A stretch of 64,000 nucleotides of DNA from Roseibium aquae (GTDB lineage: Bacteria; Pseudomonadota; Alphaproteobacteria; Rhizobiales; Stappiaceae). Positions within the stretch are counted from its first letter, which is position 1, and every line of letters starts with the position of its first letter. Shown one piece after another: positions 11,019 through 15,060 of the stretch. The notes beneath the pieces were generated by a model that worked only from the letters and a program-made list of their open reading frames with translations, made no database searches and was not told the origin of the DNA. The stretch covers positions 62,001-126,000 of the forward strand of contig NZ_VXDC01000009.1 of assembly GCF_008711285.1 (NCBI RefSeq), given 5' to 3'. The position numbers and the translations under genes were made by a program.

Positions 11019-13952
<2,934 letters not shown>

Positions 13953-14166
13953 GTTGCAGTGCACCAAGCTTTTTCCGTGAGGACTTTCAAGCTTTTTTGC
14001 TTTTGTCCGGCCGATGGCTGCGACAATTTGTGCTGCATTGCAAACAGCGCATGACTGACATGCATTTCTGAGCCTTCTTTTAATTCGGAGCGCGAATTAT
14101 ATCTGGGTCATCGAGTTGATGACGCAGCGCCGCGACGCGCTGCCATGGACAGAAAGAAATAGGTCG
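13953..14166. other. Gap between uvrA and the first DUF1127 gene
   Basis: 214 bases without a gene. The first part has T runs near 13993-13998 after CAAGC that might end uvrA transcription, but without a strong hairpin. A perfect inverted repeat lies at 14081-14099. It must also hold the promoter of the downstream small gene; I find no clear -35/-10 pair. Confidence 0.5.
14081..14099. repeat. Perfect inverted repeat upstream of DUF1127 gene
   Basis: TAATTCG (14081-14087), a five-base spacer, then CGAATTA (14093-14099). It lies 68 bases before the small-gene start. It could be an operator for a dimeric regulator or a hairpin in the leader. No function is known from the sequence alone. Confidence 0.5.
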
Positions 14167-14316
14167 ATGTTCGACACCGTCGTTCGCAAGTACAACAACT
14201 GGGTGAAGTACCGCCGCACCGTGGATGAGCTGTCTCGGCTCTCCAACCGGGAGTTGGGCGATCTTGGCATCACCCGCAACCAGATTGAGTTTGTCGCCCG
14301 TCGCGGACGCGGCTGA
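14167..14316 (+). CDS. DUF1127 small basic protein, CcaF1-like
   Basis: 49 aa. The DUF1127 core is clear: MFDTVVRKYNNW, then TVDELSRLSNRELGDLGI and a basic tail FVARRGRG. In Rhodobacter such a protein (CcaF1) binds RNA, and its mRNA is processed to yield CcsR sRNAs from the 3' side. Exactly this arrangement follows here, with three CCTCC-loop hairpins starting 18 bases after the stop. The ATG at 14167 starts the conserved domain; a longer frame upstream is not conserved. A paralogue lies at 14743. A role in RNA turnover or stress response is inferred from that family. Confidence 0.9.
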   Translation: MFDTVVRKYNNWVKYRRTVDELSRLSNRELGDLGITRNQIEFVARRGRG

Positions 14317-14330
14317 CCGAACTCGAAAAA

Positions 14331-14460
14331 GCTCGCGGTCCAAGGCTACCTCCTCCTCCCAAGCCAAGGACCGCGTCGAGGCAAGGCCACCTCCTCCCAG
14401 CCTTGTCTCATCCAAACGACGCCCGCCGGTACCTCCTCCCACCGGCGGGCGATCGTTTTT
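14331..14460 (+). ncRNA. CcsR/cuckoo-like sRNA cluster: three hairpins with CCTCCTCCC loops
   Basis: Three consecutive stem-loops follow the DUF1127 gene, each showing an anti-Shine-Dalgarno loop. Hairpin 1: GCGGTCC (14335) with GGACCGC (14368-14374), inner GGCT/AGCC, loop with CCTCCTCCTCCC. Hairpin 2: AGGCAAGGC (14379-14387) with GCCTTGTCT (14400-14408, one G-U), loop CACCTCCTCCCA. Hairpin 3: CGCCCGCCGGT (14420-14430) with ACCGGCGGGCG (14441-14451), loop ACCTCCTCCC, then T5. This matches the alphaproteobacterial CcsR/cuckoo RNA family in loop motif, array form and DUF1127 host gene. Processing into separate sRNAs is inferred. Confidence 0.87.
14420..14460 (+). terminator. Intrinsic terminator of the first DUF1127-sRNA unit
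   Basis: The third hairpin has an 11-bp perfect stem and ends in ATCGTTTTT, so it doubles as a Rho-independent terminator. Its loop still displays CCTCCTCCC, so the terminator hairpin itself is one of the sRNA modules. Confidence 0.88.
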
Positions 14461-14742
14461 CAAGCCTGCGCGCCCCGCACCTTTTTCCATACGTCCGATC
14501 AGTACAACAGTGCCCGCACCCAGAAATTAAGTGTGACGGCGGCACCTGATCTATGCGGATCAACTTTCAACAATGCCTTTAAGACTTTGGTGACCTGCAT
14601 TTTACTCAAGGCTGTCTTGCAAAATAGGGTCTACCTGATGGGCAAGTCCGGGCTTATCTAGCACTCAACAGATTTGATCGGGCCCGGCGCCGAACGGCAC
14701 CACGGCCCCCACAGACACGGTCCCCATAGAAAGGCCAGAACC
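14461..14742. other. Gap between the two DUF1127-sRNA units
   Basis: 282 bases with no credible gene. It should contain the promoter of the second unit, since a strong terminator closes the first. A CTTGCA near 14623 could be a -35 element of a heat-shock-type promoter, but I find no convincing partner. AAAGGCC lies just before the next start codon. Confidence 0.4.
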
Positions 14743-14892
14743 ATGCTTGATTCCGTCGTTCGCTCCTTCCGCAACTGGAAGCGCTACCAGAACACCTACA
14801 ATGAACTGTCCCGTCTGAGTGAGCGCGAACTCACAGATCTCGGGATCAGCCGCGGCGATATCGACCGGTATGCCCGCGCCTCGATGAAGTGA
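14743..14892 (+). CDS. DUF1127 small basic protein, second copy
   Basis: 49 aa, the same length as the copy at 14167 and clearly related (MLDSVVRSFRNWKR, YNELSRLSERELTDLGISR, basic tail ending RASMK). The two differ at many positions, so this is an old duplication. AAAGGCCAGAACC precedes the ATG. It too is followed by hairpins carrying CCTCCC loops, so the unit of duplication appears to be gene plus sRNA. An RNA-binding role is inferred from Rhodobacter CcaF1. Confidence 0.88.
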   Translation: MLDSVVRSFRNWKRYQNTYNELSRLSERELTDLGISRGDIDRYARASMK

Positions 14893-14900
14893 ACCGAACA

Positions 14901-15000
14901 TCCGGGCCGCGCCAACCTCCCATGGCAACGCCCGGCCTCCCGCATGTCACTGCGGGTTTCAAAGACGCCTGCCGGACCTCCCACCGGCAGGCGTTCTTTG
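14901..15000 (+). ncRNA. Second CcsR/cuckoo-like hairpin cluster with shorter CCTCCC loops
   Basis: Hairpin 1: CCGGGC (14902-14907) with GCCCGG (14930-14935), inner GCC/GGC, loop AACCTCCCAT. Hairpin 2: CCCGCA (14939-14944) with TGCGGG (14951-14956); here a CCTCCC overlaps the 5' arm instead of the loop. Hairpin 3: CGCCTGCCGG (14966-14975) with CCGGCAGGCG (14984-14993), loop ACCTCCCA, then a T-rich tail. The motif is CCTCCC rather than CCTCCTCCC, so this cluster is a divergent version of that at 14331. Confidence 0.8.
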
Positions 15001-15003
15001 TTT
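14961..15003 (+). terminator. Intrinsic terminator of the second DUF1127-sRNA unit
   Basis: A perfect 10-bp GC-rich stem (14966-14993), extended by A-T pairs between AAAGA and TTCTTT, is followed by a T-rich tail to 15003. The loop shows CCTCCC. Confidence 0.85.
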
Positions 15004-15009
15004 CAAGGC

Positions 15010-15060
15010 CCAGTTTTTGCGGCCAGTTTTTGCGGCCAGTTTTTGCGGCCAGTTTTTGCG
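15010..15060 (+). repeat. 13-bp tandem repeat, four copies
   Basis: The unit CCAGTTTTTGCGG is repeated without change at 15010, 15023, 15036 and 15049, the last copy lacking one base. It lies just after the second sRNA terminator and about 120 bases before the end of the lipoprotein gene. No coding frame explains it. Copy number may vary between strains. Confidence 0.92.

Follow-up and report, generated by a model that had tools for sequence, protein, structure and literature searches.

The window, the whole 64,000-nt stretch of Roseibium aquae DNA analyzed here, contains a short + strand gene for a 49-aa DUF1127 protein (gene A, 14167–14316; Pfam PF06568, 58.2 bits, E 6.6e-16), followed directly by three hairpins on the same strand (array A, 14331–14457), each with CCUCCUCCC in its loop. 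A second DUF1127 gene of the same length (gene B, 14743–14892, + strand; PF06568, E 4.8e-16) stands a few hundred bases further on, with an array of its own (array B, 14897–14999, + strand). This second cassette, spanning 14743–15000 in all, was absent from the first-pass annotation of this DNA. Upstream of gene A, a long open reading frame (ORF) ends at 13952, which we take to be uvrA. Of 36 genus stretches (one being the second stretch of one genome), 32 have a uvrA-like motif upstream, as do 10 of the 29 best-scoring DUF1127 loci of the order.

Array A begins close behind its gene, with 17 nt between the stop codon and the first stem. In the minimum free energy (MFE) structure, CCTCCTCCC is present in the loops of all three + strand hairpins, namely hairpin 1 (14334–14375, CCUCCUCCUCCC in the loop), hairpin 2 (14378–14409, ACCUCCUCCCA in the loop), and hairpin 3 with its T5 tail (14414–14460, loop ACCUCCUCCC). 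Folding of 14317–14462 placed the stem of hairpin 3 at 14414–14458 and the T5 run at 14456–14460. This last hairpin looks terminator-like by eye, and it was not listed by our terminator scan because the scan allows loops of 3–8 bases only and this loop has 10. The array folds at −67.9 kcal/mol, compared to −38.6 ± 3.7 in 200 dinucleotide shuffles, none of which was as low (z −7.96). The motif CTCCTCCC occurs 82 times on both strands of the 4.4 Mb genome, and three of these copies fall within 88 bases at array A. The first-pass annotation had described three hairpins ending in T5, with a shared loop motif, directly after a DUF1127 gene, and each of these elements was borne out.

To assign the array to an RNA class, we compared it with Rfam models. 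The ar14 model (RF02344) matched 14331–14457 at 72.5 bits (E 4e-11), exceeding its gathering threshold of 58.8, while CcsR1 (RF02791) reached only 28.8 bits over 14373–14457 in a permissive search, below its gathering threshold of 65.3. The earlier assignment to a CcsR/cuckoo class was thus half right: a cuckoo/CIN1-type anti-Shine-Dalgarno (aSD) array does lie behind the DUF1127 gene, but the model that fits it is ar14. Similarly, the locus is invisible to protein gene callers, as had been suggested, yet Rfam detects array A at its default threshold. No ar14 match at E 0.01 or better was found in the genome beyond arrays A and B. Seven weaker matches (13–24 bits) occur elsewhere, and six of these were set aside as further copies since no CCTCC hairpin stands at the match. 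Given the ar14 match, the invariant loop motifs, and the covarying stems described below, array A is, as far as sequence comparison can say, an alphaproteobacterial ar14/“cuckoo” anti-Shine-Dalgarno RNA. The locus is therefore a further example of a known RNA type behind a DUF1127 gene.

Across relatives, both the array and its position are conserved. By DUF1127 protein, the nearest named relatives are Roseibium (formerly Labrenzia) and Pannonibacter. Matches to ar14 at E 0.01 or better were present in 36 of 37 same-genus genomes, its own included, and in 47 of the 61 genomes of the relatives set. At least two consecutive DUF1127 genes, with CCTCC hairpins behind the first, were found in the window and in 35 of 35 other genus loci; in the stretches examined, R. 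litorale has four such genes and R. suaedae five. We aligned array A from 35 of these 36 loci, including the window (L124 was left out because the rule for finding the array end failed there). Three CTCCTCCC motifs were present in all 35 arrays, and 27 of 27 positions of the three CCTCCTCCC motifs were invariant, compared to 17 of 58 stem positions. Double compensatory changes were found in 17 of 29 stem pairs, with 98.7% of cells paired across 33 distinct rows. The covariation score was 0.283. None of 500 shuffles reached this value (0.169 ± 0.007), and sliding the partners gave 0.087 at most, although these shuffle counts do not equal probabilities because the sequences are related. The number of further pair types was not above chance, at 27 compared to 26.1 for the shuffles, 178 of which scored as high. 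Still, stem covariation around constant loops, which the first-pass annotation had named as a check on its proposal, was on the whole found among the relatives. In the 35 aligned loci, the gap between stop codon and first stem is 6–19 nt. This is too short for a promoter, so the array A RNA presumably derives from the 3′ part of the DUF1127 transcript.

The second cassette appears to be a tandem copy of the first. Array B resembles ar14 at 37.2 bits, below gathering, and has shortened loops (ACCUCCCA twice, plus one plain hairpin) and a terminator-like end. The first and last loops carry ACCTCCCA, the middle hairpin lacks a motif, the fold is again stable (z −5.52), and the last hairpin was listed by the terminator scan. 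A tandem DUF1127 gene pair was present in all 36 genus loci examined. By contrast to the strictly constant loops of array A, two CTCCTCCC motifs were kept in only 25 of 34 arrays B, with one or both missing in the remaining 9, the window included. The window array B has no full CTCCTCCC motif, and the one in L115 lacks even CCTCCC. The alignment of array B excludes L116, where the end was mis-set, as well as L123 and L130, where the DUF1127 genes number more than two. In L116, only 146 nt of array B were read, and it is scored as lacking two motifs, even though one more CTCCTCCC lies beyond. Gene B is present in all nine loci with reduced motifs. A tree of the prpE gene from 35 genomes, 33 of which have a motif state assigned, shows at least five changes of state, four of them forced by well-supported branches, though such counts from a single-gene tree do not distinguish gain from loss. 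Our reading is that these changes are losses. Cassette B would thus be a copy shared by all the genus loci examined, with its protein gene kept throughout but its loop motifs altered or absent in the window and some other lineages.

The leader of cassette B (14676–14742, + strand) is strongly conserved in most relatives, where the stretch GAACGGGCCAGACGCCGATCCGCGGTGCCATGGCC...GAAAGGCC precedes gene B, and has diverged in the window. A TTG-started frame of 72 aa runs into gene B in the window, but an upstream ORF in this leader was rejected as neither start codon nor frame is conserved, and the fold z is only −0.83. A search for a 16-mer of the leader at one mismatch was too noisy for use. Directly behind array B, at 15011–15059, a 13-nt unit, CAGTTTTTGCGGC, occurs head to tail three times in full, together with ten bases of one more copy.

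Upstream of gene A, comparison across the genus revealed a palindrome, GCATGACTGACATGC (14049–14063), and a promoter-like element, CTTCTT-N17-TTATAT (14074–14102, + strand). The palindrome fits the VtlR/LsrB box GCAT-N3-TG-N3-T, a consensus reported from Brucella and Agrobacterium (PMC7486931). Its exact form, GCATGNCNGNCATGC, was found in 34 of 36 genus loci. In all 33 of the 36 loci that show the whole pattern, it lies 10 nt before a −35-like hexamer of the CTTCNN type, with a spacer of 16–19 nt to a TATAT-like hexamer (17 nt in 24 loci, 19 in 6, and 16 in 3). In 34 of 35 relatives, the box itself, a 7-base consensus taken from genera other than Roseibium, stands 60–190 bases ahead of gene A, compared to a mean of 2.6 and a maximum of 8 in 200 shuffles, although these are not 34 independent events because the loci are related. 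None of the 33 genes B has the box. Judged by sequence alone, an LsrB-type box with −35/−10-like hexamers thus precedes the first DUF1127 gene.

The box was also looked for across the order. Among the best-scoring DUF1127 loci (the best match of each of 29 genomes, and so a biased sample), 14 of 40 DUF1127 genes have the box (shuffle mean 1.7, maximum 6), and 8 of these 14 also have CCTCC hairpins. In a lower-scoring sample, 4 of 33 genes have it (shuffle mean 0.77, maximum 3); here 29 of 40 DUF1127 loci gave rows, the rest being missed by the two-sequence HMM or lying too near an edge. Box and hairpins are separable, since six Rhizobium loci have the box without such hairpins behind their first DUF1127 gene, and seven Pseudochrobactrum-type and three Salipiger/Citreicella loci have hairpins without a box in 260 bases.

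Other readings of the upstream region fared less well. A scan of 13950–15050 with the sigma-70 consensus returned 0 sites, so a plain sigma-70 promoter was not recovered in this way, and the conserved hexamers emerged through genus comparison instead. The sequence TGCATTGCA before cassette A resembles the reported PhaR consensus TGCRNYGCASMA (PMC6201568), but we set PhaR aside as the less likely regulator because the window copy departs from that consensus and the palindrome under the LsrB box is better conserved. A regulon defined by the palindrome was also rejected, as its second exact copy in the genome (L142) misfits GCAT-N3-TG-N3-T and could be linked to no start site.

A candidate for the regulator is present in the same genome, where trxB is followed by a 298-aa LysR gene (Pfam). 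This order has been described for vtlR/lsrB (PMC7486931, PMC11975290), and in Agrobacterium the AbcR RNAs are reported directly downstream of vtlR, with AbcR1 activated by VtlR (PMC7486931). Here, an AbcR-like hairpin starts 318 nt behind the LysR gene (L004 positions 1501–1630, − strand; G000:C12:514865–514991), with the loop ACCTTCCTCCCA and an ar15 match of 24.3 bits (E 0.046), below the gathering threshold of 40. At E 0.001, the ar15 search gave no match here, nor in the controls. The same RNA accounts for one of the seven weaker ar14 matches, its hairpin lying on the opposite strand. Its CCTTCCTCCC is preceded by the box GCATAGCTGCCTT at a distance of 84 nt. This combination of an AbcR-like RNA, the box, and the Agrobacterium gene order serves as a positive control both for the box and for naming the LysR gene, and we infer that this gene is probably LsrB. 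No box was found in the 300 bases before trxB, although autoregulation has been reported in Agrobacterium.

The loops of array A are complementary to extended Shine-Dalgarno (SD) sites, and we therefore looked for such sites before start codons. The pattern GGGAGGAG, 3–10 nt before an ATG, occurs 19 times in the genome vs. 2 for the reversed pattern. Twelve of the 19 sites were annotated, and several sites precede tiny frames only. The longer frames include a fadD-like ligase, a prpE-like ligase, and the phenylacetate-CoA ligase PaaK, alongside an arsenite-oxidase-type small subunit, a flavocytochrome sulfide dehydrogenase, and a Usp protein. The known NfeR1 target ntrB was not recognized among the 12 annotated of the 19 sites. 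The fadD-like gene, one of two candidates followed across the genus, has the SD site but was rejected as a target because it occurs in 1 of 37 genus genomes (its own only, at a threshold of E 1e-180). The prpE-like gene, on the other hand, is present in 37 of 37, and its start could be read in 30 of these, with GGGAGGA before it in 28 of the 30. Its leader pairs with the loop at −16.1 kcal/mol vs. −11.2 kcal/mol with the 16S tail, accessibility being ignored. The DUF1127 leaders showed no such preference in duplex energies for the loop over the 16S tail. In the window, 41 long ORFs were inspected by a crude rule that detected no SD at all for 22, and GGGAGGA was seen before none. The prpE-like protein (636 aa) is best matched by propionate-CoA ligase models (739 bits, under the cut-off of 955), with acetate-CoA ligase nearly as good (645.5 vs. 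657). This prpE-like acyl-CoA ligase would be the best conserved candidate target found, as a prediction chosen from a list.

Taken together, we consider the locus to be probably a stress- or nutrient-responsive operon that encodes a 49-aa DUF1127 protein and carries an ar14/cuckoo RNA in its 3′ part. LsrB, the product of the LysR gene behind trxB, would activate a single transcript. RNase E cleavage near the stop codon, perhaps aided by the DUF1127 protein, would then free an RNA of ~125 nt ending at hairpin 3, and each loop could pair with extended SD sites (UGGGAGGA and similar) to block translation. For this operon as a whole, with an LsrB-activated transcript, an RNA freed from its 3′ part, and loops that block SD sites, we estimate a probability of about 0.75. 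The first-pass annotation had expected several small RNAs processed from one transcript, by analogy to Rhodobacter, but a single three-hairpin RNA would be at least as likely. Its further suggestion that the loops sponge a regulator found no support.

The closest described system is NfeR1 (Smr14C2/SmelC397) of Sinorhizobium meliloti, the founder of ar14, a 123-nt RNA with three redundant CCUCCUCCC loops (PMC10746234, PMC7143759). NfeR1 is reported to be directly activated by LsrB and repressed by NtrC, and to silence ntrBC through its aSD loops (PMC10746234, PMC7143759). Array A is like it in having three hairpins, CCUCCUCCC in each loop, a length of about 123 nt, the covariance match, and an LsrB-type box upstream. 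However, NfeR1 has its own LsrB-dependent sigma-70 promoter according to the paper, whereas here the box precedes the DUF1127 gene and the RNA begins 6–19 nt behind the stop codon. Descriptions of multi-hairpin aSD RNAs in Rhizobiales, and of how they resemble a Rhodobacter RNA, date from 2011 (PMC3927594). The association of aSD RNAs with DUF1127 genes has been called CIN1 (PMC10253847, PMC8307010, PMC8625941). In Brucella and Agrobacterium, VtlR/LsrB systems share with this genome a LysR-type box before short DUF1127 genes and the trxB-LysR-AbcR-like order, and VtlR is reported to regulate DUF1127 genes in Brucella (PMC12595884). The accounts of these systems, as given in the cited texts, concern protein genes and AbcR, unlike the DUF1127-ar14 operon seen here.

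The array also resembles the cuckoo RNA family and the CIN1 locus that Reinkensmeier and Giegerich reportedly described in 2015, with CCUCCUCCC loop hairpins that are said to vary in number and to be tied to short DUF1127 genes. Cassette A likewise combines an aSD-loop array with a short DUF1127 gene, both in the window and in 35 of 35 relatives, whereas the tandem double cassette, with loop differences in its second copy, does not figure in the accounts of cuckoo/CIN1 given by the cited texts. To the known picture, this locus would add a conserved tandem pair whose second array has changed repeatedly, an LsrB-type box before gene A, and a single candidate target that is conserved. Among the matches listed, we found no literature on the locus in Roseibium/Labrenzia, and none on LsrB with CcsR, ar14, or cuckoo RNA beyond the papers cited here.

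The strongest competing explanation is a CcsR-like one. In Rhodobacter sphaeroides, CcsR RNAs are reported to arise from the 3′ UTR of ccaF1 under RpoHI/RpoHII, through RNase E and the DUF1127 protein CcaF1 (PMC10253847, PMC8307010, PMC8625941). Applied here, this would mean a transcript from an RpoH promoter that is cut into several RNAs of one or two hairpins. The position of the array directly behind a DUF1127 gene, presumably on one transcript, is the same as in ccaF1-CcsR1-4, and the sub-threshold CcsR1 match covers 14373–14457. The published biology of CcsR (PMC10253847, PMC8625941) also speaks for it. However, there are four RNAs and an RpoHI/RpoHII promoter in that system, while here CcsR1 scores far below gathering (28.8 vs. 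65.3 bits) and ar14 fits far better and across all three hairpins. Moreover, the conserved upstream element is LsrB-like with CTTCTT-N17-TTATAT, and an RpoH-type CTTG −35 was not seen upstream (on visual inspection). We regard a CcsR-like arrangement as conceivable but on the unlikely side. It is less probable that the hairpins act in cis only, as a 3′ UTR that terminates or stabilizes the DUF1127 mRNA without acting on other RNAs. The terminator-like look of hairpin 3 would fit this, as would array B, whose end still resembles a terminator despite its changed loops, and L115, which kept its gene without even CCTCCC. Yet termination does not require a fixed 9-nt sequence in the loops of three hairpins, and all 27 motif positions are invariant while the stems change; the founder of ar14 also acts in trans (PMC10746234, PMC7143759).

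A role as a protein platform or sponge, in which the loops bind and titrate the DUF1127 protein or another RNA-binding protein, seems similarly improbable. CcaF1, itself a DUF1127 protein, is reported to bind RNA and to affect CcsR maturation (PMC10253847, PMC12501420), and an array stands behind each first DUF1127 gene examined in 35 of 35 genus relatives. On the other side, the invariant letters are those complementary to extended SD sites, the six Rhizobium loci have a DUF1127 gene without such hairpins, and gene B persists where the loop motifs are missing. Whether DUF1127 proteins act through RNA or protein binding is disputed, and no evidence was found that YjiS binds RNA (PMC12501420). 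As for a conserved peptide encoded across the array, two frames are open, a + strand ORF of 101 aa (14225–14530) and a − strand ORF of 136 aa (14080–14490). Neither has a Pfam match, alignment gaps of varying length would break the frame, and substitutions follow base pairing instead, leaving this explanation with a negligible chance.

Returning to the LsrB-controlled operon, one locus from another family hints at how it may have formed. In L156, a terminator-like hairpin and a stretch with GCATAGCTGCCCT, which fits the box by eye, separate the DUF1127 gene from ar14-like hairpins. With the two units apparently separate there, Roseibium would represent the fused form. This leads to a broader and quite speculative proposal, which we think rather unlikely to be right in every part. 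A DUF1127 gene and an ar14 RNA, each under LsrB control and seemingly separate units in L156, would have been fused into one operon in Roseibium and the lineages closest to it, such that the redox regulator LsrB makes both. The RNA would restrain genes for acyl-CoA ligases, including the prpE-like gene with an SD that matches the loops better than it matches the ribosome. Cassette B would then form a natural series, with four or more changes in its RNA loops while the protein was kept, and so separate the two functions. The pairing of DUF1127 genes with anti-SD RNAs is known, but its logic is disputed, in that the protein may bind RNA or a protein partner and the pair may amount to a single regulator or to two. 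The Roseibium loci are a tractable set for this question, because the loops of cassette A are strictly constant while those of cassette B, only a few hundred bases away in most loci, have been repeatedly altered with the gene kept. Comparing cassette A with B, and loop-positive with loop-negative species, would separate the role of the RNA from that of the protein. Its LsrB-type box connects the locus with redox control, the mode known for NfeR1 of Sinorhizobium, rather than with the RpoH control of Rhodobacter.

Several further DUF1127 loci differ in layout from the tandem pair. The third DUF1127 gene of the R. aquae genome (L041, G000:C35:89103–89210) has a longer open frame and lies beside a LysR gene (Pfam), and no CCTCC hairpin array was seen there in the sequence inspected. 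Within the genus, L123 and L130 have one DUF1127 gene, then three successive array-like groups of CCTCC hairpins, then four and three more DUF1127 genes, respectively. In another family, a 2.3 Mb genome (L138, G043:C130:30700–33500) carries a run of four DUF1127 genes, and behind every one but the first stand two CCTCC hairpins whose outer stems are AT-rich. The longest array seen was in L170 (G046:C6), where about eight CTCCTCCC motifs, counted by eye, follow a DUF1127 gene, the last of them in a terminator-like hairpin.
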